NCBI RefSeq assembly: GCF_026151205.1
Contig: NC_087077.1
Span: 6,474,483 to 6,534,482, forward strand
DNA length: 60,000 nt
From: Bolinopsis microptera
Taxonomy: Eukaryota > Ctenophora > Tentaculata > Lobata > Bolinopsidae
Reading direction: 5' to 3'
Shown here: piece by piece, positions 1,688 through 58,960 of the stretch
How positions within the stretch are numbered: the stretch's first letter is position 1
Layout: each line of letters starts with the position of its first letter
The notes under the pieces: model-generated
Told to the model about the DNA's origin: nothing
The model's input: only the letters and a program-made list of their open reading frames with translations
The model's database searches: none
Made by a program: the position numbers and the translations under genes

Positions 1688-1716
1688 CTACAAACTCTAA
1701 GTCAGAATGTCAGAGT

Positions 1717-2415
1717 ATGAACTTTGCCCTGTTCAATTGCAGATCCATCTGCAATAAAACTGCTGGAGTCATGCAATTGCTTGAAGACTTTGATACTGAT
1801 ATTTGCTGTGCTACAGAAACTTGGCTGAGAAAAGATGACAATGCTAAGTTTTCTGAGATGAAAGAACTTGGATATTCCATTCATAGCCAGCCAAGAGCTG
1901 GGCGGGGAGGAGGTGTTGCTGTTCTATATAAGAAAAGTCTTAAAGTGACTCCTCAGAAGTGCAAGCGATTCAAAACGTTTGAGTCTTGTGAAGGTACCTT
2001 CAAATCATCTTCTGGAGATATACTACGAATTGTTTCAATTTACCGTTCTGGCACCTCCACATCTCAGAGTGCTAACATCCCCCAATTTCTAACTGACTTT
2101 GAGCAACTCTTGGTTGATTTAGTAGACAAACCTGGAAAGCCCTTGATCATGGGTGACTTTAATATCCACATTGAAGACGAAAATGATTCAGTTGCACAAA
2201 GGTTTAATTCACTACTTAAGTCTTGTGGGTGGGTGCAACAAATTTCAGCTGCAACACACAGAGATGGGGGCATATTAGATCTTGTAATTACCAGGGATGG
2301 TTCTTTTACTCACGATTGCATTGAAGTTCTAGATCCTGTCATTACTGATTCTGGTACATCGTCTGACCACTACTTTGTTGCTTTCAATTGCAATATGTAT
2401 CTCCAGCACCCATAG
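1717..2415 (+). pseudogene. LINE-A ORF2, N-terminal part: AP-type endonuclease
   Basis: This is the endonuclease-exonuclease-phosphatase (EEP) domain that nicks target DNA to prime reverse transcription. It starts at an ATG (MNFALFNCRSIC), and the family landmarks follow in order: CCATETWL with the catalytic Glu, RAGRGGGVAVLY, LIMGDFNIHIE, and GTSSDHYFVAF with the catalytic Asp-His pair. The frame then drifts and stops at 2415, while the RT frame is already open from 2388. A one-base indel at about 2390-2400 therefore separates the two halves of one original ORF2. Confidence 0.85.
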
Positions 2416-4190: not shown

Positions 4191-4537
4191 CGCAGTTGGT
4201 TAGAACGCCTGTCTTACAATCGTTAGGTTGCGAGTTCGAAACCCACTGACTGCCTGGTCGTGGGGTGAGCGTCGTCGACGTTCAGCTAAGGATCATGAGT
4301 GGTCTATGCAGCCCCCCGGTCTACTCAGCCGAATACTCGAGAAATCGGGTGTGAGGGTTAAATGAGGAGCTGCACATTGCAGCAAAGTCTCGGACGAAGA
4401 AAGTATGGTACACACTACCTTAACCGTCACTGGCCAAAAAGATCCTTCGGCTTCCTGTAATTGGCTGGTTGCACTTGTGTAACATTGTGGCTGTTGGAAT
4501 ACACCGAAGTAAAATAAGTGTCTAGATAAAAAAAAAA
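4175..4537 (+). mobile_element. tRNA-derived SINE inserted in LINE-A
   Basis: A 363-bp insert is flanked by the 6-bp direct repeat AGTACT (4169-4174 and 4538-4543). Its head (4181-4259) looks like a tRNA. The pol III A box TAGCGCAGTTGG is at 4188-4199, and a B-box-like GAGTTCGAAACC is at 4232-4243, with a TAC-type anticodon loop and an acceptor-like GGCCAGG. A non-tRNA body of about 260 bp follows, ending in a run of A. Removing the insert and one duplicate rejoins the LINE-A frame exactly at HALV-LSRIDYCN. It is not a functional tRNA gene: the anticodon stem does not pair properly. The partner LINE is unknown. Confidence 0.85.
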
Positions 4538-4543
4538 AGTACT

Positions 4544-5006
4544 CTCTAGAATTGATTATTGCAATAGCGTATATTTTGGACTGAGCTCTTATGATTTAAG
4601 TCGTTTACAGAAGGTGCAAAATTCTGCTGTAAGATTTATTTTCGGGAGAGGAAGAAAGGCACACACTACTCCACTACTTAAGAAAGTTCATTTTCTACCA
4701 GTTAGATTTAGAATAGATTTTAAGATTGCCCTACTTGCCTACAAGTGTTTAAATAATATAGCTCCTCCTTACTTAAAAGAGTTGATATCTCCTAGGCAGC
4801 AAAGTTTTAAAAATGTACGTCTTGATAATGATTATTTTTACCTTAGTTTTCCGCCCTCTCCTAACTATGTAAACACAGAGAAAGCTTTTAGTCACTGTGC
4901 AGTTAAAGTATTTAATTCCTTGCCATACGACATAAGATCAGCTGAGTCAGTTACATCTTTCAAGACCAAACTTAAAACATACTTCTTTTCTCTAGCATTT
5001 GATTGA
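4544..5006 (+). pseudogene. LINE-A ORF2, C-terminal part
   Basis: Directly after the SINE duplicate the frame reads SRIDYCNS, then LQKVQNSAVRFIFGRGR, HTTPLLKKVHFLPVRFRIDFK and SFKTKLKTYFF, ending at TGA 5004-5006. This is the conserved tail of CR1/Jockey-like ORF2 proteins downstream of the RT. It is in the same frame as the segment before the SINE, because insert plus duplicate total 369 bp, a multiple of three. Only about 40 bp of 3' UTR follow before LINE-B. Confidence 0.8.
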
Positions 5007-5477: not shown

Positions 5478-5897
5478 ATGAATATAAAACTGATTAAAGA
5501 TGTGTGTGGCCCATGCAGCAGATCTATTAACATTGGACAACCTTTACTGGAGTGTGAAAACTGCAATAATGCAATCCATACCAAATGCTTCAAATCTGCC
5601 AAATATTCTTGCAAAAATGGTCTGTGGATGTGTTACGAGTGTGCTAGTTCTGCAGAGGAACGATACTATCCATTTCCATCTAATGAAGAATCTTATGACT
5701 CTGACAGATTCTATGAAAATAGGAACCAGGAGGATACCCTGATTGCATCGTATTCCCTTGTACTTGAACGCTGTCGTCGCTACTCTAAAATTGAATTTCT
5801 AAATGCAATTAAGCAGCTTAATTCCTTAAAAAACCCATGTTATCATCTCTATTCTACAATGTGGATGGAAATGCATCCAACTTTGATAGCTTCTTGA
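5478..5897 (+). pseudogene. LINE-B ORF2, N-terminal PHD-type zinc finger
   Basis: It starts at the ATG 5 nt past the ORF1 stop. A Cys/His cluster (CGPCSRS, CENCNN, IHTKCFK, MCYEC) fits a C4HC3 PHD-like finger of about 50 residues, commonly found ahead of the endonuclease in CR1-like LINEs. An acidic, Tyr-rich linker follows. The true frame changes near 5835, where the endonuclease frame opens. The last ~20 residues of this open frame are therefore out-of-frame sequence. It should be read as the N-terminus of the next entry. Confidence 0.7.
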
Positions 5898-8890
5898 TTG
5901 AGCTCAGAAGTATAGGACACTCGTTTGATATGATAGGCCTTGCTGAAACCAATACTGATCCTGCGCAGCAGGGTCTGTATCAAATTCCAGCATACACAGG
6001 ATTCTATAGCTATGGGGAAACATTGGCGGGCAAGAAGAAAGGCACTGGTGTTGCACTCTATGTATCTGACAATCTAAACACTGTGGTCTTAGAAAAAGTA
6101 TCACATTGTACTCCAAATATTGAAAGCCTCTTTGTTGAAACCACAGATAGCGCAGGCTGCAAAATTGTTCATGGAGTCATGTACCGACCCCCAAATGGCT
6201 GCTTTGACAGCTTTTGTGAAACGCTGGAGTTAATTGCAAGACAGCTAAATGGAAAAACTGTCAATTTGTTGGGCGACTTTAACTCAAACATACTTAATAT
6301 TTCTACCAGTTCCCAGCTCTTTGAGGATACATTGTACAGAAATGGCTTCTATCCGACTATATCCATCGCAACACATTTTCGTCAAAACTGTAAAAGTTCA
6401 TGTATTGATAACATTTTAACAAATAAAATAGAGAATGTAGTCTTATCAGGTGTTATCGAGGAGCGGCTTGGTGAGCATGCCCCTATATTTACCTTTACCT
6501 CAGCAGAGACCCCTCGCAATACAGAGCCCCAGAAACATGTCCGATATTATGATTACTCAAGCTCCAAATTAAAAAGTTTTGTAACTGAACTTGAGGTGAA
6601 TGTAAATCAGCTGACTCCTTCGACACAATTTGATGAGTTTACGGCATGTTTTGACCAGACACTTGATAAACACTGTAAACTGGAAGTACCAAAAGTGACA
6701 AAAAGAACTCCGAAACTCAACCCATGGATTACAGACGGTATCATCCAGTCGGTAGAAAGAAAACATGAACTACGTAAGGAGTGGTCTGACACTGTTACCA
6801 ATAAGAACCCTGGTGGTAATCTCTTGTTCTACCAAGTATTTAGCAATTATCGTAGGATGCTTAAAGCCATCATTAAAGCTGCCAAACGTTCGCATTACTG
6901 CAACGAAATCCTCAACAACTGTGAAAACAGCAAGAAAACTTGGCAAATTATCAATGAACTTAGAGGCAAGAAGAAGAGACAAACCAAACGCCCGTTTATC
7001 ATTGATAATCAAAGAATAGTTGATAGAAGGACAATCGCTAATGGATTCAATGCTTGGTTTGTCTCTATTGCACCCAAGCTGAATGAGACGCTTAATGACC
7101 TATCTCATGGCATGCCTATATTACCCATGAAAACTTTTTATGACTTCCTGAATAAAAGAAATGAAAAAACTACTATGCTAGAAGATTGCTCCCCAACCGA
7201 AATATTGAAAATTATAAATCAGTTTGAAAACGGCAAAGCTAGTGACATTCCAATAAGTGTAATAAAAAAGTCATCTCATATAATTGCACCTGTCTTATCA
7301 AATTACTTCAATATCCTTATGGCCGAAGGTATATTTCCAGATGTCCTAAAAACTGGTAAGATAACACCTGTATATAAGAAAGGTAACCCTGAAGAAATTG
7401 AGAACTACCGTCCTATATCCACACTGTCTGTCTTCGGTAAAATCTTCGAAAAGCTCATTTACTCAAGAATATACGGATTTGTTAGCTCTCAAGGAGCCAT
7501 ATCGGAGACACAGTTTGGATTTAGGCAATCCCATTCTACATCTAATGCAGTCAATTACTCTGTAGATTTAATTACAAAATCTCTTAAACTCAAGAATCAT
7601 GTTCTAGGAATATTCATTGACTTAAGCAAAGCCTTTGACACTATCGACCATTCAACACTACTTATAAAATTAGAGGGCTGTGGAATTAGAGGAGTAGCAA
7701 ATAACCTTATAAAAAGCTACTTAACAAATAGACTACAATACACCGAAGTTGTGGGAGAAAAATCAGACACCCTATCTATTCAATTTGGTGTCCCGCAGGG
7801 TTCAATACTTGGACCTCTCCTATTTCTCCTCTACATGAACGACATCTCAAACAGTTCTAAACTAGGATCATTTGTTACATTTGCTGATGATACCAATATA
7901 TTTGTTGTAGGAAAAACAAAACGTGAGGCCTATGAACGTGGAAATAAGCTTCTTTCATCATTGCAGTCTTGCATGCGAGCAAATAAGTTACATATAAATA
8001 TGTCCAAGTGCTGCTACATACACTTCAAGCCTCCCATGAAAGGTTCTAAGTCAGAGACTCTATCAGATGATGAAGTAGGACTTACTATAGACAACTTTCC
8101 GATAAAAAAAGTTTCATCCACTAAATTCCTTGGAGTTATAATTGATGAAAACCTTTCATGGGAAGAACACATTAAAGCCCTTAAGCGAAATCTAAATCAT
8201 TCCACTTCCACCTTATGTCGACTTCGCTGCTCCCTTCCAGAATTTCTACATCAACAACTATACTATACTTTGTTTGAATCCCATCTCTCTTACTGTATAT
8301 CTGTCTGGGGTGGGGCAGCGAAGCATCGTATAAGCTCTCTGTTTACCGCCCAGAAGTACTGTCTTAGGGTTATGTTCGGTGATAGGGAGGCTTACCTTGA
8401 TAAGTTTAAGACCTGTGCACGTACCAGACCAATAGGGCACCAAAGACTTAACAACAAGTTTTTCATAAAAGAACATACTAAACCGCTATTCAAACATAAT
8501 AATATCCTAGCTATCCAAAATCTCTATACATACCACTGTTACCTCGAGCTCTACAAGATAATGAAATTTCGTGCTCCAATATCCTTACATGAAGGCTACA
8601 CATGCTCGACAAGGAAGCCGACCCTACTTATTTGTCAGGCTGACCCACCTGATAACCATAATACAAGATCAACCAACATTTTTAACATGATTACTCCAAA
8701 AATTAGAATGGATGACTTTACCATGAGTGTGATGTGTTTGCGGGGAAAGCTTAAACGTGCACTATTAAATAATCAACACAGCCACGCCCCGCTTGATTGG
8801 ACAATCAAAGATTTTGACTGCAACAATATTGTCTTCGAAAGATCACTACTTGCTGGTCACACACATGTCAGCGAAATTCCCCTAGTCTAG
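5837..8890 (+). pseudogene. LINE-B ORF2: endonuclease and reverse transcriptase
   Basis: There are 1,017 open codons. EEP motifs: LFYNVDGNASNF, IGLAETNTD, NLLGDFNSNIL (about residue 145), and a terminal GEHAPIF, where most family members have SDH. The catalytic Asp is thus replaced by Glu. RT motifs: ENYRPISTLSVFGKIFEK, motif A IDLSKAFDTIDH (about 592), GVPQGSILGPLLF, and motif C FADDTNIFV (about 682), in which Phe replaces the common Tyr without touching the Asp pair. The C-terminal region ends at 8890. It belongs with the PHD finger at 5478. A one-base frameshift near 5835 and the Glu substitution suggest an inactive copy, although the RT core is intact. Confidence 0.88.
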
Positions 8891-9580: not shown

Positions 9581-9913
9581 TTTAGCTATAAGGCGGTTTA
9601 TAAATGTTGTAACTTCCCTAGCATCTTTAAGTTGATGGGACTTATTAATGACCTCCCCTCCACCACCAACAACATGGATGCTTGCCTTGTTACTAGGTAC
9701 GACACTCAGCAAGCTAAGTTAAGCCTCCATAAGGACGATGAAGACCTAATAATATCACAGTCCAGCTCCATTTGCACTTACTCTATAGGGGCTCCACGGT
9801 CACTTGAGTTTGTGCTCGATACAACCCAAGTAGAACAACGCACAACTAGGGCCTCTAGGTCAAGGCCAGCCCAAGAGTTGATTAACGCAGACTTCACCCT
9901 CCCTGCCACCAAT
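9581..9913 (+). pseudogene. LINE-C ORF1, first part: AlkB-like 2OG-Fe(II) dioxygenase
   Basis: The frame opens after TGA 9578; the ATG at 9635 is the first obvious start, but conserved-looking residues lie before it. The sequence NNMDACLVTRYDTQQAKLSL then HKDDED is typical of AlkB-type oxygenases. The first iron ligands are the HxD at 9728-9736. SICTYSIGAPRSLEFV matches the following strand of that fold. Known family chemistry is oxidative demethylation or hydroxylation using 2-oxoglutarate and Fe(II), usually on nucleic acid. The frame runs into a transposon at 9914 and continues at 15088 in the codon ACC AAT. Function in a LINE is unknown. Confidence 0.65.
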
Positions 9914-10130
9914 GTAAGGTTTTTTTTTTACATATTTGATAGATTTACAGATCTGGCTTGACAAAAATTTTCAGAAAAAATCATGTTCGCGGGAAGCAAA
10001 AATCCGATGAGTTTTTTAGGGGGGAGGGGTAGGGGGTTGAGGGGGGTTGGGAAGGGTTGTCATATGACGAGAAATTTGTTGCAAAAATTAAACAATCTTT
10101 ATTTGTTGATATTATTCACCCCTGTTGCCT

Positions 10131-10345
10131 AGAGTGGTGGGTCTGCACTTGAGAAGAGTGGGTCTGGCCGCTAGAATGGTGGGTCTGCAATCTAGAAGTG
10201 GATCTGGCAACCAGAATGGTGGGTCTGCAATCTAGAAGTGGGTCTGGCAACCAGAATGATGGGTCTGTACCCTTAAAGAGTGGTCTGACAACCAAAGTGG
10301 TGGGTGTGCACTTGAGAATAGTGGGTCTGGCAGCTAGAAGTAGTA
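10131..10345 (+). repeat. Short block of the 'gggtctggcaaccagaatgg' minisatellite
   Basis: About five degenerate repeats alternating gtgggtctggcaaccagaat and ggtgggtctgcaatctagaa. It is the same family as the large array at 11028. The two blocks are separated by about 680 bp of single-copy AT-rich sequence (10346-11027) with no recognisable feature. Confidence 0.85.
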
Positions 10346-11027
10346 GTAAACCCGCGATGGGGTGGCATGTGCCTCAATAAAAATATTACAATCATTTATT
10401 ATTATATCAATGTATCATTAAATATTTCAAAAATATCAATAACGTATGGTTGATCCTTCACACTTGGTAAAATATATAAAAATAAAGTTAATCTACACTA
10501 AAGAATAAATAATCTATATTATATAAATCAACAATATTAACTCCCCATCTTCATGTAGTCATTTATCAAAGCGGTAGAAATCCAAGTAATTTTAGTACGC
10601 GGTGCGCAAGGAATTTCGTTTTTTTTTAAATGTGTAGGCAAGATAAGCCTAAGTGTGGCAGTGAAAATTGAAAAATAAGTTGCAGAATAAATTGCAGTGA
10701 CTGACTGTCAAATGCATTATCGCAGTTCATTTATTTGACTGCACAGTGCACTAACGTTTAGGATTCTTACAGCTGTTATATTTTGCTAATATTTTGTTTA
10801 AAAGTTGTAAAGGACAAAGTTCTTGTCCGTCCACGAAAGGTTTTCTAGGTCAAGTTTTTGTTTGTCCAGTAAGTAACGTACAATGTTGTCCTTGTATGAA
10901 TTAATAAACTTATCTTGTAACTTAGGTACGTTGAAGGGAAGGATTTTGTTTATTTCGTTTATTGTGTTGTTATATAATCGTGGTCCTACGTTAGAGATGC
11001 TATAATCGGTGATCCGTAATCTGTTGA

Positions 11028-13530
11028 TTAATGGTGGGTATGCAATCTAGAAGTGGGTCTGTTAACCAGAATTGTGGGTCTACACCCTTGAAGAGTGGGT
11101 CTGACAACCAGAATGGTGGGTCTGCACTTGAGAAGAGTGGTTCTTGCGGCTGGAATGGTGGGTCTGCAATCTATAAGTTGGTCTAGCAACCAGAATTGTG
11201 GATCTGCATTCGAGAATAATGAGTCTTCACTCTAGAAGAGTGGGTCCGGCAACCAGAGTGGTGGGTCTGCACTTGAGAAGCGTGGGTCTGGCCGCTTAAT
11301 GGTGAGTCTGCACCCTTTAAGAGTGGGTCTGACAACCAGAGTGGTGGGTCTGGACTTGAGAAGAGTGGGTCTGGCAGCTAGAATGGTGGGTCTGCAATCT
11401 AGAAGTTGGTCTGGCAACCAGAATGGTGGGTGTACGTACACCCTTGAAGAGTGGGTCTGACAACCCGAGTGGTGGGTCTGGACTTGAGAAGAGTGGGTCT
11501 GGCAGCTGGAATGGTGGGTCTGCAATCTAGAAGTGGGTCCGGCAACCAGAATGGTGGGTGTACGTACACCCTTGAAGAGTGGGTCTGACAACCAGAGTGG
11601 TGGGTCTGCACCCTTGAAGAGTGGGTCTGACAACCAGGGTGGTGGGTCTACACTTGAGAAGAGTTGGTCTGGCAGCTAGAATGGTGGGTCTGCGATCTAG
11701 AAGTTGGTCTGGCAACCAGAATGGTGGGTCTGCACCCTTCAGGCTTCAAGAGTGGGTCTGACAACCAGAGTGGTGGGTCTGCACTTGAGAAGAGTGGGTC
11801 TGGCAGCTAGAATGTTGGGTCTGCAATCTATAAGTGGGTCTGGCAACCAGAACGGTGGGTCTGCAGTCTGCACCCTTAAAGAGTGGGTCTGACAACCAGA
11901 GTGGTAGATCTGCACTTGAGAAGAGTGGGTCTGGCAGCTGGACTGGTGGGTCTGCAATCTAGAAGTTGGTCTGGCAACCAGAATGGTGGGTGTACGTACA
12001 CCCTTGAAGAGTGGGTCTGACAACCCGAGTGGTGGGTCTGGACTTGAGAAGAGTTCGTCTGGCAGTTGGAATGGTGGGTCTGCAATCTAGAAGTTGGTCT
12101 GGCAACCAGAATGGTGGGTGTATGTACACCCTTGAAGAGTGAGTCTGACAACCCGAGTGGTGGGTCTACACTTGAGAAGAGTTGGTCTGGCGGCTAGAAT
12201 GGTAGGTCTGCGATCTAAAAGTGGGTCTTGCAGCCAGAATGGTGGATCTGCACTTGAGAAGAGTGGGTCTGTCAGCTGGAATGGTGGGTCTGCAATCTAT
12301 AAGTGAGTCTGGCAGCTAGAATAGTGGGTCTGAAATCTAGAAGTGGGTCTTGCAACATGAATGTGGGTCTGCACCCTTGAAGAGTGGGTCTGGCAATCAG
12401 AATGGTACGTCTACACTCTAGAAGAGTGGGTCTGGCAACCAGAATGGTGGATTTTCGCCCTAGAAGGATGAGTCTGGAAACCAGAAAGGTGGGTCTACAA
12501 TCTGGAATAGTGGGTCTGGCAACCAGAATTGCGGGTCTGCATTCTAGAATAGTGGATCTTCACTCTAGAAGAGTGGGCCTGGCAACCAGAATGGTAAGTC
12601 TACACTCTGTCAACCAGATTTGGGGGTCTATAAACTAGAATATAGGAGATATGGCTACCAGAATTGTGGGTTTGGACAACCCGAATGGTGGGTCTTCACT
12701 CTAGAATAATAGGTCTGGTGGGTCTACACTTTAGAAGAGTGGGTCTGGCAACTAGAATGGTGTGTCTGCAATCTATAAGAGTGGGTCTGGCAACCAGAAT
12801 AGTGGGTCTGCAATCAAGGGAATCAAGATGAGTGAGTCTGGCAATCAGAATGGTGGATCTGCACCTTAGGGTAGTGGGTCTGGAAACAAGAATGGTGGGT
12901 CAGAATTCTTGAATAGTGGGTCTTCACTCTAGCTAAGAGTGGGTCTGGCAACAAGAATGGTGGGTAAGAATTCTAGAATAGTGGGTCTTCACTCTAGAAG
13001 AGTGGGTCTGGCAACCAGAATGGTAAGTCTACACTCTGTCAAGTGTCAACCAGAATTGGGGGTCTAAACTAGAATATAGGATATATGGCAACCAGAATTG
13101 TGCGTCTGGAGTCTAGAGTCTAGAATAGTGGGTCCGGCAACCCGAAAGGTGGGTCTTCACTCAAGAATAGTGGGTCTGGCAATCGGAATGGTGCGTCTAC
13201 ACTCTAGAAGAGTGGGGCTGGCAACCAGAATGGTAGGTCTTCGCCTTAGAAGAGTGGGTCTGGCAACCAGAATGGTGGGTCTGCATTTTATAATAGTGGG
13301 TCTTGACTCTATACCTACTAGAAGAGTGGGTCTCCTCTCTAGAAGAGTGATTCTGGCAACCAGAATGGTAATTCTTCACTCTGTCAACCAGAATTGGGGG
13401 TCTATGAACTAGAATATAGGAGATATGACAACCAGAATTGTGGGTCTGGACTCTAGAATAGTGGGTCTGGCAACCAAAATGTTGAGTCTGCACTCTAATA
13501 GAGTGGGTCTGGCAACTAGAATGCAGACAC
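11028..13530 (+). repeat. 2.5-kb minisatellite array, ~42-bp composite unit
   Basis: Two related half-units alternate: gtgggtctggcaaccagaat and ggtgggtctgcactctagaa, giving a period of about 40-45 bp with many variants (gacaaccagagtggtgggtc; cttgagaagagtgggtctgg). A recurrent 'tctagaa' half-site recurs throughout. Several larger blocks (for example 11400-11640 and 11940-12180) share the same variant order, so segments of the array were duplicated. Open frames across it in both strands are by-products of the repeat. Confidence 0.9.
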
Positions 13531-13739
13531 GTAGCCAAGGGGAAGACCCCCGGAAAAAATTGAACCCCAAAAAAAATAAGCCCCATGGTCGCCTGGTAAG
13601 TTGGCTGTGTTTATGACTGTTTGATTAAACGACACGACAGGCAATCGACTTTAGCATTTCGTAAATTATTCCCAAATCCCACTATACAATATGTTATATG
13701 TACTTATTCCATTCAATGTGACAAGTACTGAGTTCCCCC

Positions 13740-14835
13740 TAGCCCCCAACTTTGTATTATTGTGATGTCTGAAATTACAAATTTCTAATGTCAAATGTCG
13801 TCTGAAACACCCTATTTCTCAAAAATTTTCCGGGGGCTGCACCCCCAACTTTGTATTATCGCCGTCCTACAAATTTCTTAAATGCCTAATGTCGTCTAAA
13901 ACAAATAATTTCTAAAAATTTTCTTGGGGGCTGCGCCCCCCCCCCCCCCCCCAGCCCCCCAACTTTATATTATTGTGATGTCTGATTATTACTGCGCCCC
14001 CCCAGCCCACCAACCTTGTATTATTGTAATGTCTGATTATTGCTGTCCCACAAATGGGTCTGGAACACCCTATTTCTCAAAAATTCTCCGAAGGCCAGGG
14101 CTGCGCCTGCCTAGCCCTCCAACTTTGTATTATTGTGATGTCTGATTATAATTACTGTCCTACAAACACGTCTAAAACACATAATTTCTCAAAAATTTTC
14201 TGATTGGCTGCCCCCCCCCCCCCCCCCCCCTCCCTAGCCAACCAACTTTATATTATTTTGATGTCTGATTATTACTGCCCTACTAATTTCTTTAATGCCT
14301 AATGTCGTCTGAATCACCCTATTTCTCAAAAATTTTCCGGGGGTGCGCCCCCCTAGCCTCCCAACTTTGTATTATTGTGATGTCTGATTATTACTGTCCT
14401 ACAAATTTCTTTAATGCCAAATGTCGTCTAAAACACATTATTTCTCAAAAATTTTCCTGGGGGTTCGCTCCCCTAGCCCACCAACTTTATATTATTCTGA
14501 TGTATGATTATTGCTGTCCTACAAATTTCTTTAATGCCAAATGTCGTCTGAATCACCCTATTTCTCAAAAATTTTCCGGGGGTTGCGCCCCCCAGCCCAC
14601 CAACCTTGTATTATTGTAATGTCTGATTATTGCTGTCCTACAAATGTCGTCTGGAACACCTTATTTCTCAAAAATTTTCCGAAGGCCAGGGCTGCGCCCC
14701 CCTAGCCCCCCAACTTTGTATTATTGTGATGTCTGATTATTACTGTCCTACAAATTTCTTTAATAATGCCAAATGTCGTCTAAAACACACAATTTCTCAA
14801 AAATTGTCTGGGGGGCTGCGCCTTCCCCCCTCCGT
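13740..14835 (+). repeat. Degenerate tandem array, ~95-140-bp unit
   Basis: About nine units share the core 'aactttgtattattgtgatg', 'tctgattattactgtcctac', 'aaatttctttaatgcc', 'tgtcgtctaaaacacc' and 'tttctcaaaaattttccggg', followed by a C-rich stretch of varying length (up to about 20 C at 13938-13952 and 14212-14230). The C-tracts drive the length differences between units. Confidence 0.85.
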
Positions 14836-15087
14836 AGCCAACCAAAGGAGCTTTGCCCCGGCTACTTGTCGTGTCGGACTACGTGCCCAGAATCGAAAAA
14901 ACTTAATCTTCAAATGAATAACGGAACCTTCATTATGAAGTTACGAGATGATAATATAATTGGGAGGCAAAGTGGGTATCGGGCTTGGGGCTCATAATGC
15001 GCAAAATTTGGCCGCTGTCGAGTGGGTCTGCCTAAAATTCACAGATCTAGCTATGGGTCTGAGACATTTGTAAAAAAAAAACCTTAC

Positions 15088-15915
15088 ACCAATGGCACAC
15101 TGAACATCATGAAGCCTGGTGCACAGCAAGTCATGAGGCACAGGATTGCCCCAGGAGTTGCACCTTCTGACAATGAAATTTGTTGGAGGTATAGTCTCTC
15201 CTTCAGAAAGTTAACCACACCTTCCTCTTCCTCTTCCCCTTCATCTCCTATTCTTCCCTCTCCTACATCCGACAGTCCTAATAAAGTATCCCCAAAAGCC
15301 CCCATCACAGACTCTCAAAAACACCAGAAGTCTATTATTCTCATTGCTGGTGACTCCTTTGCTGCTCGATTGGACGCTGATCGCCTCAGTAGAGGTAAAG
15401 AAACTGTCACCAACATAGCTAAGGGTGGGCTTAAGATCTCAGCTATACAGAAATCTATTGAGGCCTTTCATACAAAGAACCCTCTTGTGCAGGTAAAGAA
15501 ACTGTTCTTAAGCTTCGGTGCCAACGACATCCGGTACTGTACCCAGGGTGTCAATCATCTCAAGACCCCTGTGAGTGACCTTATGAAGACAGCAAAAAAA
15601 CTTTATCCAAATGCACGTGTTTTTGTACAAGCTATTCCACCAGTCCACCCCAACGGACAAGATAAAATCCCTGGTAATGTTTGTGCTATGAATAATTTGA
15701 TCTTTGATCGCTGCTCTAGGCATAAACTGTTTTACCTTGATGTTTTTTGGGCTTTCTTAGACCGCTATGGAAACAGAAACGAGAGATTATTTCCTAAGTG
15801 TGACAATAGGGGCTTTTATGATATTCATCCCAGCCCCAAGGCTGGGATGCCAGTGTTGGCAAAGTTCTATCTCAGAATCATACACTCAAAGTGGTTTAAT
15901 CTAATGGGATACTGA
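15088..15915 (+). pseudogene. LINE-C ORF1, second part: AlkB C-terminus and SGNH hydrolase
   Basis: The first codons continue the dioxygenase interrupted at 9913: NGTLNIMKPGAQQVMRHRI supplies the third iron ligand (His), and WRYSLSFRK the Arg that normally binds 2-oxoglutarate. A Ser/Pro-rich linker follows. An SGNH hydrolase comes next: GDSF (nucleophile Ser, near 15350), Gly in AKGG, GAND (near 15520) and DIHPSP (catalytic Asp-His, near 15822). The stop is TGA 15913-15915. Esterase domains are known in CR1 ORF1; coupling to an AlkB fold is much less familiar. Codons between 15022 and 15087 belong to the transposon, not to this protein. Confidence 0.75.
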
Positions 15916-16109
15916 TGTGGTAATCCAATTCAATATTTCAATTTTTCATTGTCTGCATCAGTATCCTATTGGATCTGATCATTTGGATGTTATTTATATG
16001 TATTCAAACGAAGTGATAGCATAATGTATGTTACTTCATATTATAGCACAATACCTAACAAAACACAACGGCGAGACACAATTCTGTTAATAATATACTT
16101 AAAAGTTCC

Positions 16110-19100
16110 ATGGGAATATCGGCTCAACAACACCGTGTTGCAACTGGTATGTTTTCTAGGTATGTTATCATCAGTAAAAGTAATAGAGGTAACGGGGAAA
16201 ATTTGTTGTCCTGTCTTCTGTCTCGTCATATGTTATGTGCTCTATTGGGTATATTTTATTTGTATGTTATTTTGTATATATTTTCTTTGACTATCGATGC
16301 TAATATACTCCCTGGTGCTCCCCTACAACCTAAAATACACTCTGTACCATGTTTGAGGTCATCCATAAATCTTTACTTTATGGTAATATTTTGTACCATT
16401 TTTCTCAGACACTTCAAACTTGTGTATAGGGGTGAGAGGGGCATTGGGGCAGCCTTAACTGCAATTTCTGTAAAATTGCTATCTACCACAAAAACTGAAC
16501 TGTCACCTACCATGTCACCGAAACAGACTGTTAAGTTACTTTTCGGTATTACCAGCAGCTGGCTTGGGGTCATGTCTAGGTGTGGTCTGGTTTTTCTATC
16601 TCTCCTTAATATTTCCCTGATAGTAATTTGTAATTGTTCCTTACTGAACCCTGGACCAAATTTATCCGTTGTTTACAATAATGTCCATGGTTTCCTAAAT
16701 ACTCGCGATCTAGCATCAGGAACACCACCACTAAATATGACCAAGATACATGAATTTCATGGTTATATCTACAAACATAAGCCTCACATCATTATTCTAA
16801 ACGAGACATGGCTGAAAAATTCCATTCTCAGTAATGAGGTGCTCCCTGACAAATACAAAGTATTTAGGCTTGACCGATCCTTAAGATCGCATCCAGTGGA
16901 TGCAACCCAGCCCAAGAAATTCAGAAAAAACGGTGGTGGTGTTCTGATTGCCCATAGAACAGACATTGATATCTCTAGTCTAAAGTTTTCTAAGGTTAGT
17001 GTTCAAGCTGAATTATTATCCGTCATAATTAAGACTCAGTGTGGAAGAAACTTTTGTATATCAACATTCTATAGAGTAGGAACGCTTGGCTTAGATAATT
17101 TTGAATCTTTCAAGAAACATTTTGTTACTTTAGCATCTGCCAGAAAGTTGCAAAGACACATTCTGGTAGGGGACTTTAATTTGGCTTCGATTTCTTGGCC
17201 AGATGGTCAGTCATCTTGTCAGCTACACTCTAGCTTTGTAAATTTTCTCACTGATGACCTCGGACATACACAACTTATTAGTTTCCCTACTCACAAGTCA
17301 GGCAACACCTTAGATCTTGTGTTCACTAACATTCAGAACCTTATTAAGAATGTTAAAGTTTTAGATCAAAACGAAATGTGTATGTCCGACCACTTTTGTA
17401 TCACATTTGACATTGATATTAAGACCAAGTATATTAAGCAGCCTAAAAGAAAGATCTTTAATTATAGCAAAGGTAATTTTAGGGGCCTGAATTCTGAGTT
17501 ATTTAGCATCGATTGGGATAATATATTTGAGTGTAATGATCCTTATCTTGCCTGGAGTCGATTCAGAGGAGTTCTTGATGCAGCCTGTGACCGATGGATC
17601 CCTAAAAAGACCATTAAGTCTCAGTTCCAGCCCCCATGGTATGACTCCGAATGTGATCGCCTCCTACGAAATAAGGAGAAATGGAGAATAAGGCATAAGG
17701 GGAGCAACTCTGAGTCTCATAAACAAAAGTTTCGTGCATTTCGCACAAAATTTAAAAATTTGATGGACGAAAGAATGAGACTCAGTGTTGAGGATGACTC
17801 CGATGATGCTCTTATCTCCAAGAAATTCTGGACCTACGTTAAATCTAAATCAAAGTCAACCAGGATCCCTGAAACTGTCAAATATCATAATCGCTTTCGA
17901 AACAATCCATCTGATCAAGCTGCCCTTTTTAACGAATATTTTTATGAGCAGTTTTCTCAAGAGAGCGATTATGGCATTGACATAGATTTTCGTGATGATT
18001 GTTTTTCAAGTCTTGTGTTTAGTAGAGAAGATGTTCTGTTGATTCTTAAAAAGTTAAATCCTAACAAGGCCCCTGGCCCTGATGGGATTCATGGGAGAGT
18101 CCTCAAAAACTGTGCCCAAAGCCTTGCATACCCACTTAGTGTTTTATTTAACCTGTCTTTCTCGAGCGGATGCATACCCCCTGATTGGAAGCTGGCACTT
18201 GTAGTACCAGTGCACAAAAAGGGCGATAAGTCTTCGGTTGAGAACTACAGGCCTATCTCGTTAACATCTCTTGTAATGAAAGTCTTTGAAAGGTGCATAA
18301 AGACTGCATTATACGCTGCGTGTTCTGATCTGTTGGATGACCGACAACACGGTTTTGTTAATGAACGCTCATGCACAACCCAAATGATACCTTTCACAGA
18401 CAATCTTGCACTTGCATTGAATAACAGGTCCAGGACTGATATAATATATTTTGATTTTGCGAAAGCCTTTGATAGCGTTTCGCATGACCTCATTTTAAGT
18501 AAATTAAAGAATATTTTTTATGTCGATGGACTAATGCTTAAATTTATTAAGTCCTATCTTGAGGGGCGACAACAACAAGTAGTGATAGGAGGCCAAACGT
18601 CTTCTTCTCTACCAGTTCAGTCTGGTGTCCCTCAAGGTTCTATACTCGGCCCTTTATTGTTTGTAATATTTATAAATGACATGTTCTCCTGTGTCTCTGA
18701 AGGCACCAATATCGCCCTTTATGCAGATGACACTAAAATTTGGAGGGAGATTCTTGGTTACCCTGACCATCACATAATCCAAAATGACATCAATAGATTA
18801 TATGATTGGTCAGTGAGAAATCGAATGAAGTTCCACCCACAAAAGTGCAAAGCCCTCTCTGTGTCCCTGCAAAGAAACGTGCTGGATAACTTGCCATTCA
18901 ATACCTTCTTTTATAAACTTTCTGGAAGTGATATTGACTTTGTGCCCTCTCAGTCAGATTTAGGAGTCGCAATAAACTCCAGGTTTAATTGGGGTGCACA
19001 ATGTAAAGCGCTTGTTTCCAAAGCTACATCTAGACTTGGACTACTTAAGAGAACATGTCATTTCACTACTGATAAAAGGCAGAAAAGATCGTTCTATTTA

Positions 19101-19616
19101 GCGTTAATTAGGTCTATATTTGAACATTGTTCTGTCATATGGTCCCCTCAATCTGCAACCCATCTTCAACAGTTTGTTGCTATCCAAAAGAGGGCTATTA
19201 AATGGATCAATGGTGAACCTTACTCCAGTTATAATGACGATAAACTTGCTACAGAGCAAAAGAAACTAAATATTCTCCCTGTTAAACAGAAGTTTATTTA
19301 TAACGATCTTATGACCTTCTATAAAATAGTGAATAGCATAATTCCAGTTTCGCTCCCTACATATATAGTCCTATGCCGTCCAGAGGGCACCCGATACACT
19401 AGGCACAATGCTCAAATAATTGATATGTCGGATACTTCAACTTACATGAGTACCACTGTGCCCTGCTCGGATGCCTTCCGAAATAGCTTTTTTCATAGAT
19501 CTATGCTGAATTGGAATAGTCTACCAGTATGTATCCGGCAGTCAGAGCGGATTTCTACTTTTAAGGCCAAACTGATCAAGTACCTCTGGGCTGCCGATAC
19601 TGTCTGGCCAGATTAG
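16110..19616 (+). CDS. LINE-C ORF2: endonuclease and reverse transcriptase
   Basis: A single uninterrupted ORF of 1,168 codons, 194 nt after ORF1. The first ~180 residues are rich in hydrophobic stretches and end in CNCSLLNPGP (NPGP at 180-183). This resembles the 2A ribosome-skipping motif found at this place in some animal LINEs, although the usual Asp-x-Glu before it is absent. EEP motifs: VYNNVHGF, LNETWL, LVGDFNLASI (about 353), MSDHFCITF (about 427). RT motifs: APGPDGI, ENYRPISLTSLVMKVFE, FDFAKAFDSVSH (about 780), GVPQGSILGPLLF, YADDTKIW (about 870). All catalytic residues are present. The protein nicks target DNA and copies LINE RNA. The true start may lie further downstream. Confidence 0.9.
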   Translation: MGISAQQHRVATGMFSRYVIISKSNRGNGENLLSCLLSRHMLCALLGIFYLYVILYIFSLTIDANILPGAPLQPKIHSVPCLRSSINLYFMVIFCTIFLRHFKLVYRGERGIGAALTAISVKLLSTTKTELSPTMSPKQTVKLLFGITSSWLGVMSRCGLVFLSLLNISLIVICNCSLLNPGPNLSVVYNNVHGFLNTRDLASGTPPLNMTKIHEFHGYIYKHKPHIIILNETWLKNSILSNEVLPDKYKVFRLDRSLRSHPVDATQPKKFRKNGGGVLIAHRTDIDISSLKFSKVSVQAELLSVIIKTQCGRNFCISTFYRVGTLGLDNFESFKKHFVTLASARKLQRHILVGDFNLASISWPDGQSSCQLHSSFVNFLTDDLGHTQLISFPTHKSGNTLDLVFTNIQNLIKNVKVLDQNEMCMSDHFCITFDIDIKTKYIKQPKRKIFNYSKGNFRGLNSELFSIDWDNIFECNDPYLAWSRFRGVLDAACDRWIPKKTIKSQFQPPWYDSECDRLLRNKEKWRIRHKGSNSESHKQKFRAFRTKFKNLMDERMRLSVEDDSDDALISKKFWTYVKSKSKSTRIPETVKYHNRFRNNPSDQAALFNEYFYEQFSQESDYGIDIDFRDDCFSSLVFSREDVLLILKKLNPNKAPGPDGIHGRVLKNCAQSLAYPLSVLFNLSFSSGCIPPDWKLALVVPVHKKGDKSSVENYRPISLTSLVMKVFERCIKTALYAACSDLLDDRQHGFVNERSCTTQMIPFTDNLALALNNRSRTDIIYFDFAKAFDSVSHDLILSKLKNIFYVDGLMLKFIKSYLEGRQQQVVIGGQTSSSLPVQSGVPQGSILGPLLFVIFINDMFSCVSEGTNIALYADDTKIWREILGYPDHHIIQNDINRLYDWSVRNRMKFHPQKCKALSVSLQRNVLDNLPFNTFFYKLSGSDIDFVPSQSDLGVAINSRFNWGAQCKALVSKATSRLGLLKRTCHFTTDKRQKRSFYLALIRSIFEHCSVIWSPQSATHLQQFVAIQKRAIKWINGEPYSSYNDDKLATEQKKLNILPVKQKFIYNDLMTFYKIVNSIIPVSLPTYIVLCRPEGTRYTRHNAQIIDMSDTSTYMSTTVPCSDAFRNSFFHRSMLNWNSLPVCIRQSERISTFKAKLIKYLWAADTVWPD

Positions 19617-20040
19617 CTCATCAGTCTTATGAGTCTCAGAAATTTGTTTTTGTTGGTTACAATTCTGTCCGTCCAATTTCCTATCTGCTTGTCCTTTTCT
19701 TATTTCTTTATCAGTTGTGACGGAATTGTAATGAACAAAATCCTTATAATTATTTATGATATGTTTGATTTCTTGTTAATGTTTGTCATTCAAATTTGGT
19801 AGACGGCCCCAACGTTAATGTGGCTCTTGCTATGTGTTGGTTCAGCCGAATTAATTATTATATTTAATCAAGTTTATTTTTCTCGTTAGTTGTCATCCGG
19901 CCAAACATTAAGCAACTTATATTGCAGTACCATTTATCATTTAGTAATCAAAATATGTCATTGTAATTTTGCATGGCTGAAATGTAACGCTTGATTTATA
20001 TATATAATGATTAATTGAATTTTCAAATAAAAAAAAAAAA
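19617..20040 (+). other. LINE-C 3' UTR and poly-A tail
   Basis: AT-rich non-coding sequence after the ORF2 stop, ending in 'caaataaaaaaaaaaaa' (A-run 20029-20040). This marks the 3' end of the retrotransposed copy. A matching target duplication could not be located because the 5' end is unclear. Confidence 0.6.
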
Positions 20041-55753: not shown

Positions 55754-58700
55754 TCAGGTAAACCATTGTGTAGTGAGAATAGAATCCGTGTTAGTATTAA
55801 ATAATGGTGCGCTTTTGGGAATTGTTTTCTTGTGAGACAATGGTACTAGATTAGGAAAGTTTTTCAATTTATGCATTAAAATGAGTGCGTTCTTTACAAT
55901 GATACTGTGTACTGTCAATATTTTATGTAAATAAAAGCCAGACTTAGTACTTGCTGGGGGGATACCGTCCTTGTACCAGTAATTGACGAAACCAGGTAAT
56001 ACTGCACGAAGGCCCATTTTCTGTTTTACAAAAAGTGATTCAATATGAGACTTAGCAGCAAAACCCCATACAAGGCTGCAATAATTAAGGTGTGACTGCA
56101 CAAAACTTTGATAAATTTGAAGACGTGCTTCGAGAGGCAGATATTTTTTAAGTTTGTACATGACTCCTATGTATCTGGACATTTTCATTTTCATGGCAGA
56201 GATATGATAGGACCAGTTTAGTTTATCATCTATTATAACTCCTAAAAAACGGGCTTCTGTTTTTCTCTCAATTGTGACACCAGAAATTGTCACATCACGA
56301 TAATTAAGATTCCTTTGTCGAGAGAAGATCATATAATTTGTTTTCTTAAGGTTGAGAGCTAAACCATTATTATCTACCCACTTAACTAAAGCATCGCTAA
56401 GAGTTATTAGTTTATCGTAAACTTCATTAAGATTTTCTCCTATCAGGAAGATGTTGGCATCATCTGCGTACATAATGAAATTGGCTATATCTGATATTTG
56501 AGGCAGGTCGTTTATGTAGATTATAAAGAGTAAAGGTCCTAATATTGACCCTTGAGGCACGCCGTATAAAATTTGGTTGGTTGAAGATTTTGACGAGCCA
56601 ATTGATACAAACTGTTTCCTGTTAGTGAGATATGACTTGAACCAGTTTAAGGCTTGACCTCTTATGCCGTAATGGTCCAGCTTGCGCAAGAGTATGGAAT
56701 GATCCACAAGGTCGAAAGCTTTGCTGAAGTCGATTAAAAGAAGTAAAGTTACCTGCTTTTTAGACATTGAATTAAGAATGGTGTCTTTTGCGTTGAGAAG
56801 AGCATGTTCACAAGACCTACCCGGGCGAAAACCGTATTGGTTTTCACATAGTATGCTGTATTTATCTAAAAAACTTAAAACTCGGTTATGCATTAGCTTT
56901 TCAAATACTTTAGAGAATGAAGCAAGAAGAGATATTGGTCTGTAATTTTTTATGTCAGATTTAGATCCACCTTTGTGAATTGGGACCACCTTCGCTTCTT
57001 TCAAAGCCTGTGGAAAGATCCCCTGTTCAAAAGAACTGTTGACAACGTGGGCTAGTACACTAGTAAAACTGGGACAACTGTTAGCGATTTTTAGAGGTTC
57101 AATTTTAGTGTCTAGTGTGGCTTTATTCTTAAGCAGGTTTATGACGTCCTCAATTTCAGTGGCAGTAACTGGCTTTAAGTAAATACTACTTGGAGTGGCG
57201 TTGCGAAGTGTGCTCTGGGTTCCACCAGGATCAAAAGTGGTCCTACTACTAATTTCAGACTTAATTTTTGGAGCGATGTTTGAGAAGTAATCGTTAAATT
57301 TTTCTGCTACAGCTGCCGGAGTGCTGATTGAGCCGTCTTCGTCAGTCAGTTTTATTAAGGTAGGTTTAGATTTTTTCCTATTTAGAAGACTGTTTATCAT
57401 TTGCCACTGCTTCTTAGAAGTTTCTTTGTTTTGCTCAAAAAATTTTTTGAAGTGCTTGTTTTTAGCTTTATCGATGTGTTTATTACAAAACTTCTTCAGA
57501 CGGTCATATTTACTGCGGTTGCTATCAGATGGTTCCTTAACAAAATCATAATATGACTCATTTTTACGTTCTATAGCTTCTTCGAGCCAGGGCAGCATCC
57601 ATGGTTTCGGATTAACACGTTCATTTTGTCTTCGTGATTGTCTTTTTGTAGGATAGGCAGACTCGTAAATCTTATTATAAGCCGTATTAAAATTATTGAA
57701 CTGTTCGTTGGCATCATTGGTATTGTTAAAAATTTCTGACCAACTTTCATCTATAATTAAGTCTCTGAATTTTTGATTGTTGGTGTCGTTAAATCTACGT
57801 GTTTCAGTTTGAGATACATTTTGTGAGTTAGACGCAGAGCGGTAGCTGCTGGTTGGCGTGTTATCAAGATTTATTGTAGTGACTATTGCTAAGTGATCCG
57901 ACATATCTGTCGTTAAGACATTACAGCTTATTGTATCCTCAAGATTGTTTGTGTAGATGTGGTCAATAAGCGTGGCACTATGGTCCGTTAGGCGAGTTGG
58001 GCGTGATACAATTTGAATAAAACCGTAAGAGGAAGCAATATCTATAATGTTCTGACATGCTTGGTCGCTGCTGTGCTTCAGTAAATCAAGGTTGAAATCT
58101 CCATGAAGCGTCATATGTTTACGGGTGTGTCTCCCTAGGTTGTGCAGCGTATTTTTGAAAATTTCTAGAAACGCTTCAGGTCTCCTAGCGGGAGAACGGT
58201 AAACATTGCCAATTATTTTCGTTCTGTTGTATCCTTTGCACTGATGGAGCTTAATAAATTGGAATTCGCCACTAGTATTAGTTGGTTCAGGGTTTGGAGT
58301 GAAAATATCAATTTTATCATAATCGACTACACGTTTGTGTACATAAATGGCTAGCCCCCCACCTTTTCCAGATGGGCGAATTGGATCCTGGATAAATGGT
58401 TCATGAAATCCATCTAAGGTAACGTCGTTTATTCCGTTCGGTAATTTCCCTAAAGTACAATTAGTTTCGTTAAAACACAATATATCATACTTATCATAAG
58501 TCTCAATATCATCACGTAGTTGATCTATATTCTTAATAAGGGATCTTATGTTCATAGAAAATGTTTTAAGTTGAGAGCAGGTAGATTTTTTCACGTTACG
58601 TTGTTGTTTGTACTGACAACTAGTTAGGAAAGATGAAATATTGCTCCAAGTTGAATCTTGATGCTCTTCGTTGGTCATGGCGTCGCCAATAAGATTAAAT

Positions 58701-58960
58701 CGACTATTCTGATCGTACGGATTAAATATGTCACTATTAAGATTACTGTAGTCGTCATAGATTTCATAGTAGGTTGCGTGAAATCCAGGAATGATACTTT
58801 CACAGCAACTCGTACAGCCTAAATTATCCTTAAAACATTTGACATGGACATTACTTTGGCACCATGAGCATGTGCGAATATTTTTAATAGAGTAACACCA
58901 GCCGCTGCAGCTTGAACATTTGATCTTGACTTTGTTTTCAGATGTAACAGTGGGTTCCAC
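55754..58960 (-). CDS. LINE-D ORF: zinc finger, endonuclease, reverse transcriptase
   Basis: 1,068 uninterrupted codons from an ATG. Residues 14-52 hold a Cys/His cluster (IKCSSCSGWCYS, TCSWCQSNVHVKCF, CTSCC) of PHD-like type. EEP motifs: FSMNIRSLI, LCFNETNC, GKGGGLAIYV, LHGDFNLDLL (about 288), TDMSDHLAIV (about 355). RT motifs: IKNYRPISLLASFSKVFEK, LIDFSKAFDLVDH (about 737), YGVPQGSILGPLLF, MYADDANIFLIG (about 830). All catalytic positions are present. It would nick DNA and reverse-transcribe its own RNA. The stop codon lies inside the sequence shared with 21658-21740, so that conserved block marks the coding/3' UTR border of this family. Confidence 0.92.
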   Translation of the reverse strand: MEPTVTSENKVKIKCSSCSGWCYSIKNIRTCSWCQSNVHVKCFKDNLGCTSCCESIIPGFHATYYEIYDDYSNLNSDIFNPYDQNSRFNLIGDAMTNEEHQDSTWSNISSFLTSCQYKQQRNVKKSTCSQLKTFSMNIRSLIKNIDQLRDDIETYDKYDILCFNETNCTLGKLPNGINDVTLDGFHEPFIQDPIRPSGKGGGLAIYVHKRVVDYDKIDIFTPNPEPTNTSGEFQFIKLHQCKGYNRTKIIGNVYRSPARRPEAFLEIFKNTLHNLGRHTRKHMTLHGDFNLDLLKHSSDQACQNIIDIASSYGFIQIVSRPTRLTDHSATLIDHIYTNNLEDTISCNVLTTDMSDHLAIVTTINLDNTPTSSYRSASNSQNVSQTETRRFNDTNNQKFRDLIIDESWSEIFNNTNDANEQFNNFNTAYNKIYESAYPTKRQSRRQNERVNPKPWMLPWLEEAIERKNESYYDFVKEPSDSNRSKYDRLKKFCNKHIDKAKNKHFKKFFEQNKETSKKQWQMINSLLNRKKSKPTLIKLTDEDGSISTPAAVAEKFNDYFSNIAPKIKSEISSRTTFDPGGTQSTLRNATPSSIYLKPVTATEIEDVINLLKNKATLDTKIEPLKIANSCPSFTSVLAHVVNSSFEQGIFPQALKEAKVVPIHKGGSKSDIKNYRPISLLASFSKVFEKLMHNRVLSFLDKYSILCENQYGFRPGRSCEHALLNAKDTILNSMSKKQVTLLLLIDFSKAFDLVDHSILLRKLDHYGIRGQALNWFKSYLTNRKQFVSIGSSKSSTNQILYGVPQGSILGPLLFIIYINDLPQISDIANFIMYADDANIFLIGENLNEVYDKLITLSDALVKWVDNNGLALNLKKTNYMIFSRQRNLNYRDVTISGVTIERKTEARFLGVIIDDKLNWSYHISAMKMKMSRYIGVMYKLKKYLPLEARLQIYQSFVQSHLNYCSLVWGFAAKSHIESLFVKQKMGLRAVLPGFVNYWYKDGIPPASTKSGFYLHKILTVHSIIVKNALILMHKLKNFPNLVPLSHKKTIPKSAPLFNTNTDSILTTQWFT

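Follow-up and report, generated by a model that had tools for sequence, protein, structure and literature searches.

In a 60,000-nt stretch of the genome of the ctenophore Bolinopsis microptera (NCBI RefSeq assembly GCF_026151205.1, contig NC_087077.1, positions 6,474,483 to 6,534,482 of the forward strand; hereafter the window), we found a long interspersed nuclear element (LINE) whose first open reading frame (ORF1) joins two predicted enzymes. Comparison of this copy with its relatives showed a putative ALKBH3-like Fe(II)/2-oxoglutarate dioxygenase fused ahead of a putative SGNH esterase in LINE ORF1. A first, sequence-only reading of the window had reported an AlkB-SGNH fusion in the ORF1 of this LINE; the fusion proved real and the description too narrow, since many LINE lineages and a Helitron carry the pair. 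We propose, with a probability of roughly one in two, that the ORF1 protein (ORF1p) removes polymerase-blocking N1-methyladenosine (m1A) and 3-methylcytidine (m3C) from element RNA or cDNA. All copies, families and lineages reported here come from this single genome (264.65 Mb), in which the loci read were labelled L004 to L060. L004 is the uninterrupted reference copy for the window LINE.

The LINE in the window

The window LINE consists of two parts, 9611-9914 and 15087-20040, which were 98% and 97% identical to L004 (blastn). The following features were recognized:

9611..9914, + strand: LINE ORF1, first piece, from a 5'-truncated copy, with the N-terminal half of the AlkB domain (blastn 98.4% to L004; PF13532, 4.1e-8)
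9728..9742, + strand: AlkB iron ligands His and Asp plus an invariant Glu (H-K-D-D-E; from the sequence, invariant in 17 ORF1s)
9915..15086, no strand: inserted element splitting ORF1 (terminal inverted repeat of 18 bp, target duplication of 6-8 bp), mostly two tandem-repeat arrays (repeat search, blastn break points)
15087..15207, + strand: LINE ORF1, second piece, C-terminal part of AlkB (sequence, ORF1 alignment)
15139-15141, 15187-15189 and 15205-15207, + strand: second iron His of AlkB, followed by the two 2-oxoglutarate Arg positions (sequence, ORF1 alignment)
15337..15912, + strand: SGNH/GDSL hydrolase domain (PF13472, 3.5e-10; invariant Ser, Gly, Asn and His in the SGNH alignment)
15349-15360, 15518-15529 and 15820-15831, + strand: SGNH blocks with Ser, GxND and Asp/His, respectively (sequence)
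16110..19616, + strand, frame open from 16059: LINE ORF2, with a hydrophobic N-terminal part with NPGP, an endonuclease and a reverse transcriptase (PF14529, PF03372, RVT_1; hydropathy)
19617..20040, + strand: LINE 3' untranslated part (blastn to L004 and L005)

The alignment of two uninterrupted copies extended over ~5.7 kb, at which point L004 ended in an A run (blastn). Compared with the uninterrupted copy, the window copy is 5'-truncated and misses ~130 N-terminal residues. The ORF1 start at 9581 given by the sequence-only reading had to be dropped, being a mere stop-to-stop frame; homology to the uninterrupted copy starts at 9611. Its catalytic motifs were all recovered, namely HxD at 9728-9736, the His of VMRHRI at 15139-15141, WRYSLSFR at 15184-15207, GDSF at 15349-15360, GAND at 15518-15529 and DIHP at 15820-15831.

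As that reading had expected, the two ORF1 pieces matched the AlkB and SGNH profiles of Pfam (2OG-FeII_Oxy_2, 4.1e-8; Lipase_GDSL_2, 3.5e-10), both above the family cut-off. Single-sequence searches against the PDB gave weak matches, to E. coli AlkB for the first piece (0.13), and to a lysophospholipase (0.06) and ZfL2-1 (0.26) for the second. The predicted endonuclease/reverse-transcriptase ORF2 was found downstream of ORF1 (frame 16059-19616), with Pfam matches to an endonuclease and to RVT_1 (3.9e-30).

The ORF1 pieces do not form one open frame in the window copy, because a separate element sits between them. The single frame for AlkB and SGNH is found in the uninterrupted copies, but is split by the insert in the window. 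The empty, unduplicated insertion site was present by exact string in seven of the nine other copies searched, and this string was absent from the remaining two.

Uninterrupted copies and related lineages

A genome search with the SGNH piece gave 369 first-look candidates, of which 129 were scored, so that the counts are lower bounds. There were at least 130 matches; at least 19 lay in open reading frames 521-526 aa long and had an identity of at least 95%. In the copies of this length that were fetched, AlkB preceded SGNH in ORF1, and an endonuclease/reverse-transcriptase ORF2 came next; these copies are the uninterrupted ones for which a search had been suggested. The AlkB piece gave at least 136 genome matches, the weaker ones to other families. 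The Pfam profile 2OG-FeII_Oxy_2 gave at least 151, many in long frames of repeated lengths. Among the matches listed, recurring lengths were 551, 593, 611, 646, 676, 707, 750 and 778 aa, with one further group at 2225-3388 aa.

Twenty-nine element AlkBs entered the AlkB tree, 27 of them as LINE rows. AlkB or SGNH matches had led to 24 of these LINE rows, and reverse transcriptase alone to the other three. In 26 of the 27, AlkB and all SGNH blocks lay within one open frame; in the last (L045), the fetched stretch ends after the GTND block. After collapsing the near-identical pairs L004/L037 and L029/L045, there were 25 distinguishable LINE lineages with AlkB and SGNH in ORF1, including the three picked by reverse transcriptase. 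The broken copies L012, L013 and L014 were excluded from alignments and trees. Every intact ORF1 read, from the window LINE and from related families, carried the AlkB domain, so that its presence in other copies, which the sequence-only reading had left to be checked, is borne out.

Several ORF1 architectures were recognized. The window type has a short N-terminus, AlkB and SGNH. In L019, L020 and L021, a PHD-like finger precedes AlkB and SGNH (PHD E-values of 0.0002-0.0065, all under the Pfam cut-off). In L017 and L022, a long stretch separates AlkB from SGNH, with weak matches to coiled-coil families in a Pfam scan of L017. L050 is a single frame of 1611 aa with AlkB, SGNH and then the start of ORF2, as if ORF1 and ORF2 were fused.

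Five loci were chosen by reverse transcriptase only. Three of them (L052, L053, L055) had an intact finger-AlkB-SGNH ORF1 (finger recognized by eye), and L056 had the same order of domains in a broken frame. For L054, no ORF1 was found in the stretch read. A control clade was formed by another LINE of the window (365-5006) and the 49%-identical L057, whose ORF1s end in cysteine knuckles, recognized by eye. AlkB and SGNH motifs were absent from the control-clade ORF1s, and Pfam reported no family for that of the window. The LINE at 365-5006, AlkB-less and with a CCHC-type ORF1, has many genome copies at 98-99% identity; its ORF2 frame is broken in the window copy.

The Helitron L025 encodes SGNH, AlkB, DUF6570 and Helitron_like_N (PF14214, 3e-22) in one frame. 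On contig C10, this frame continues into a PIF1 helicase (PF05970, 2.7e-22), as read from the overlapping stretches L025 and L058. Rep and PIF1 are therefore part of one protein, in a frame of 3388 aa, which identifies the carrier as a Helitron. It had three nearly full genome matches at 80-100% identity, one at 47%, and more in pieces. Repetitive Pro/Ala-rich stretches lie between the domains in L025, L049 and L058.

Conservation of the catalytic residues

We aligned 17 ORF1s, with a mean column identity of 21%. In the AlkB region, the invariant columns (L004 numbering) were Y118, H171, D173, E175, S189, G191, R194, Q243, H248, R264, S266 and R270. These include HxDxE, the second His and the RxSxxxR end, and thus all iron and 2-oxoglutarate ligands. 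The iron triad and the 2-oxoglutarate Arg were invariant in 18 of 18 domains when the Helitron was added.

These residues bear on the idea that the AlkB fold does no more than bind nucleic acid, replacing an RRM or a CCHC knuckle, with catalysis being incidental. Esterase ORF1ps lack a defined RNA-binding domain (PMC3905857), and the AlkB-less LINE of the window has a CCHC-type ORF1 instead, its knuckles recognized by eye. A pure binder, however, would not need the iron and 2-oxoglutarate ligands that are invariant in all 17 ORF1s, and we consider such a role very improbable.

In the SGNH region, G374, N376 and H477 were invariant in the 17-ORF1 alignment. A separate alignment of SGNH alone, with 18 rows including the Helitron L025, had the catalytic Ser, the Gly, the Asn and the His as its only invariant columns; the Ser of the L025 row was aligned by chance, its own Ser block lying outside the aligned piece. 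L049, the second Helitron copy, has a GDS block. In L015, L018, L023 and L059, the serine block reads S-S-S and not G-D-S, while Ser, GTN and His are kept. Esterase activity may differ in these elements.

With respect to profile support, 2OG-FeII_Oxy_2 was above the cut-off in 10 of 14 full-length LINE ORF1s and in the Helitron ORF, and in all three ORF1s of a later scan. SGNH was above the Pfam cut-off in 6 of 15 proteins (L004, L006, L007, L008, L010 and L011), and in one of the three further ORF1s (L060, Lipase_GDSL).

Affiliation of the AlkB and SGNH domains

A profile built from 18 AlkB domains, Helitron included, was compared with the PDB. The matches were ALKBH3 (5e-32), ALKBH2 (8e-24), E. 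coli AlkB (2.5e-10) and ALKBH8 (1.4e-8), followed by the weaker DNA N6-methyladenine demethylase (3.5e-5), ALKBH1 (0.06) and ALKBH5 (0.9, chance level). FTO was not among the 51 chains listed. The ALKBH3 match spans the catalytic core (positions 27-172 of 173) and includes the part that acts as substrate lid in those AlkBs that work on nucleic acids. For single domains, the first PDB match was ALKBH3 for L017 (5.7e-13), the Helitron L025 (5.1e-11) and L008 (8.9e-4), and ALKBH2 for L020 (5.5e-11). ALKBH2/3 was thus nearest for four of four single domains, three from LINEs and one from the Helitron; the half-domain of the window was too weak to tell. By profile similarity, the element AlkB is of the ALKBH2/3 subgroup, closer to it than to other ALKBH proteins.

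This placement matters for a second alternative, the epitranscriptomic escape suggested by the sequence-only reading, in which AlkB would erase a host regulatory mark from element RNA, N6-methyladenosine (m6A) or another, and so avoid decay or silencing. The AlkB of an orchid Gypsy element is an m6A demethylase in vitro (PMC9289625), m6A affects L1 retrotransposition (PMC7873242), and the DNA N6-methyladenine demethylase is among our profile matches. However, the orchid enzyme is ALKBH5-like, and ALKBH5 matched the element profile only by chance (~0.9) compared with 5e-32 for ALKBH3. In L1, moreover, m6A helps the element and its eraser ALKBH5 suppresses it, which is the opposite sign (PMC7873242). 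Because ALKBH5 is not close and m6A helps L1, we regard escape from an m6A mark as unlikely; the ALKBH2/3 type points to m1A/m3C repair rather than to removal of host m6A. An m6A eraser of the ALKBH5 or FTO type was also considered as the default assignment and rejected on the E-value of ALKBH5 and the absence of FTO from the chains listed.

ALKBH2, the second-best match of the profile and the best one for L020, suggests an action on the DNA side. Here, an ALKBH2-like activity on cDNA or on the chromosomal target would unblock integration or second-strand synthesis, and the PHD-like finger would bring the enzyme to chromatin. The sub-threshold PHD-like matches in L019, L020 and L021 and the presence of the AlkB-SGNH pair in a DNA transposon are in agreement with this. 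On the other side, the family profile lies closer to ALKBH3, which prefers single strands, and no PHD match was found in the window-type families scanned. We consider a DNA-side role quite unlikely.

In the AlkB tree, 27 of the 29 element AlkBs formed one clade (support 95/91). Those of L017 and L022 stood apart in an unsupported position, but the approximately unbiased test did not reject monophyly of the full set of 29 (p 0.417); the tree neither shows nor rejects a single capture of AlkB for all elements. The Helitron AlkB was sister to that of the LINE L060 (99/93). Among the host's own genes, L042 is of the ALKBH2 type (3.9e-60) and L043 of the ALKBH3 type (2e-39), with L044 grouping with L043 (95/88); L042 and L043 fell outside the main element clade. 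One tree placed the element AlkBs with the host ALKBH3-like pair and apart from the ALKBH2-like gene (89/72), a split unresolved in the tree with the 29 element AlkBs.

The SGNH profile matched first, though narrowly, the ORF1p of zebrafish ZfL2-1 in the PDB (9e-16, 61.1 bits), and next lysophospholipase L1-type proteins (5e-15, 58.7 bits). The SGNH tree had the same main groups as the AlkB tree, with weak basal support. Judged from these trees, AlkB and SGNH have largely diversified together, and since both recover the same main groups, the pair is probably old. A recent acquisition of AlkB by a single element was ruled out by the number and divergence of the lineages.

Selection and exchange of ORF1

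dN/dS, the ratio of nonsynonymous to synonymous substitution rates, was calculated after Nei-Gojobori for 12 pairs, eight of which gave an AlkB ratio. Three pairs were saturated (L020-L029, L016-L030, L024-L030), and L017-L031 had no synonymous change in AlkB. Between lineages with dS <1, the AlkB ratio was 0.19 (L008-L009) and 0.055 (L017-L022); the latter value was repeated by L022-L031, L031 being near-identical to L017. For L015-L018, a pair close to saturation (dS ~2), the ratio was 0.11. The window family contributed four pairs of young copies with few changes, at 0.35, 0.21, 0.07 and 0.19. For the part after AlkB, which bears SGNH, ratios were 0.10-0.24 where defined. In this dN/dS comparison, which the sequence-only reading had called for, both regions were below 1 where a ratio could be obtained (AlkB 0.055-0.35). 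Selection appears to have retained the AlkB domain between active lineages.

The truncated and interrupted window copy could on its own suggest an artefact or a decayed fusion, that is a chance frame, a mis-assembly or a functionless captured host fragment. The probability of this is practically negligible. A chance or pseudogene fusion was ruled out by the uninterrupted copies (at least 19), the many families, the purifying selection and the conservation of the ligands.

The ORF2s of L015 (3269-5501) and L018 (reverse strand) were 98.6% identical over 2233 bp, but their ORF1s aligned over 1050 bp at just 71%, without any DNA match in the SGNH part. This combination of near-identical ORF2 and diverged ORF1 shows that LINEs have exchanged ORF1s. 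Both exchanged versions carry AlkB-SGNH.

Proposed function of the AlkB-SGNH ORF1p

In the proposed demethylation of element nucleic acid, ORF1p would coat the element RNA, with the AlkB domain supplying the nucleic-acid contact plus an enzymatic activity. The contact is ascribed to AlkB because esterase ORF1ps are without "defined RNA binding domains" (PMC3905857). AlkB would strip m1A and m3C, lesions that prevent base pairing and would halt target-primed reverse transcription, from the template RNA while it is single-stranded and from the cDNA as it is made. Tethering of the particle to membranes would fall to the esterase, a membrane action having been proposed for ZfL2-1 (PMC3905857). For the Helitron, we envisage that this enzyme shields the single-stranded DNA intermediate, so that long exposed single-stranded nucleic acid would be common to both element classes. 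We infer removal of m1A/m3C because the domain is of the 1mA/3mC repair class, m1A blocks Watson-Crick pairing and is removed from mRNA by ALKBH3 (PMC7962492), and reverse transcription is the step that would be stopped.

Several points weigh against this proposal. m1A is reportedly not widespread on mRNA (PMC7962492). Homology leaves the substrate unfixed, as related enzymes differ in the base and strand they prefer, and the DNA N6-methyladenine demethylase, too, matched the AlkB profile. 2OG-FeII_Oxy_2 was unreported in four of the 14 full-length ORF1s (L004, L006, L007 and L011), where AlkB was called because of the window fragment's own match, the aligned ligands and the tree. Outside the proteins named above, SGNH was under the Pfam cut-off or, in L020, unreported; there its assignment comes from motifs, alignment and trees. 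Finally, choosing copies by their open frames may bias dN/dS somewhat downward.

A wider scenario, which we put forward tentatively, is a genome-wide guild of mobile elements with their own repair. An ALKBH3-derived demethylase would have been captured by an esterase-type LINE ORF1, have become standard in such LINEs of this lineage by descent and ORF1 exchange, and have passed between LINE and Helitron. It would repair methyl lesions that block reverse transcription on the elements' own RNA or single-stranded DNA, so that m1A/m3C of the template, arising by alkylation or enzymatically, would limit mobility in this animal. If the mechanism is true, template damage or methylation would exert enough selection on LINEs to retain a dedicated demethylase, and ORF1p would be a template-repair factor besides a coat. 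The esterase-type ORF1p would gain a second, testable activity. The same enzyme pair occurs in both a retrotransposon and a DNA transposon of the rolling-circle type, and a transposon class would be added to the known carriers of AlkB, i.e., RNA viruses and the orchid Gypsy.

Comparison with known systems

Type IV (esterase) LINE ORF1s, such as that of ZfL2-1 (PDB 4c1b), likewise have SGNH in ORF1 ahead of an endonuclease/reverse-transcriptase ORF2. For ZfL2-1 ORF1p, a coiled coil and an esterase were described (PMC3905857), whereas the window-type ORF1 has a second predicted enzyme, AlkB, before the esterase. Esterase ORF1ps have been described as the only ORF1ps with an enzymatic function, and transposon esterases from cnidarians and sponges were aligned with them (PMC3905857). 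A survey of 448 Jockey-superfamily elements confined esterase ORF1s to two groups, both of vertebrates, and its text does not mention dioxygenase (PMC4120745). By its domain content, the AlkB-SGNH ORF1 is a variant, not a plain member, of the esterase type, since AlkB is at odds with the absence of any other enzyme from that type.

The closest element precedent found is the giant Ty3/Gypsy of the orchid Phalaenopsis, also a retroelement with an AlkB-family dioxygenase with intact ligands, and reported only from Phalaenopsis among the plants screened (PMC9289625). It is of another class and AlkB subgroup, and AlkB has another position: the orchid Gypsy is a long terminal repeat element with an ALKBH5-like m6A eraser in its own ORF (PMC9289625), whereas in the ctenophore elements an ALKBH3-like domain with an esterase partner is part of LINE ORF1 in many diverged lineages. 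Plant positive-strand RNA viruses, mainly Flexiviridae, are parasites that encode an AlkB themselves, and repair of their methylated genomic RNA is its supposed role (PMC544882). The viral AlkB is part of a polyprotein and held to be a recent acquisition (PMC544882), in contrast to the apparently old pair in LINEs. Two scans of IMG/VR viral contigs found no relative.

In fish, Helitrons are accompanied by texim, whose SGNH hydrolase is a relative of the CR1 esterase (PMC4021074). It is a neighbouring gene, and AlkB is not mentioned in the text (PMC4021074), whereas in L025 both SGNH and AlkB are in frame with Rep and the frame runs into PIF1. Human ALKBH3 and ALKBH2, the best PDB matches over the catalytic core, are cellular repair enzymes without SGNH.

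Ctenophores are held to be the sister group of all other animals (PMC10232365). Two further papers on ctenophore genomes do not use the words AlkB and ALKBH in their main text. Among the openly licensed PMC papers listed, judged by titles and abstract openings and with Repbase outside this scope, none reports AlkB from a LINE or a Helitron. Relative to the openly licensed literature surveyed, the LINE ORF1 with AlkB and SGNH is new; the esterase-type ORF1 itself was already known.

ORF2 leader and other features of the window

In the clade of the window LINE and in L060, ORF2 has two to five partly overlapping hydrophobic stretches before the endonuclease (16110-16700 in the window). Such stretches were not found in seven ORF2s of other clades, with at least 136 residues scanned before the motif; for L015 and L018 the part scanned was just 16 residues long, and L023 was unscored. 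In the window and in eight families read, this N-terminal part ends in NPGP, which we take to be a signature of 2A self-separating peptides; the usual D-x-E before NPGP is missing. It is possible that the ORF2 leader is membrane-anchored or separately released.

The insert in ORF1 consists mostly of arrays with a 21/42-bp period (~10.1-10.3 and 11.0-13.5 kb) and a ~119-bp period (13.8-14.8 kb), and no frame of at least 150 aa was found inside it. Long simple tandem repeats at 41564-42356, 43364-44092 and 48875-49940 are open in several frames at once, so that coding is not credible. A tRNA scan (bacterial settings) and an Rfam scan of the window found nothing.

Two further LINE ORF2s were recognized in the window:

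5822..8890, + strand: ORF2 of a related LINE, grouping by reverse transcriptase with L019, which has a PHD-like, AlkB and SGNH ORF1 (reverse-transcriptase tree, 96/89)
55754..58960, - strand: ORF2 of the L016 LINE family, whose ORF1 has AlkB and SGNH; the ORF1 side is here a tandem repeat (frames, comparison with L016)

Among the upstream frames listed, none was an ORF1 belonging to the LINE at 5822..8890. The reverse-transcriptase tree was built without named reference sequences, and the reverse transcriptase of L022 lay far from the others.

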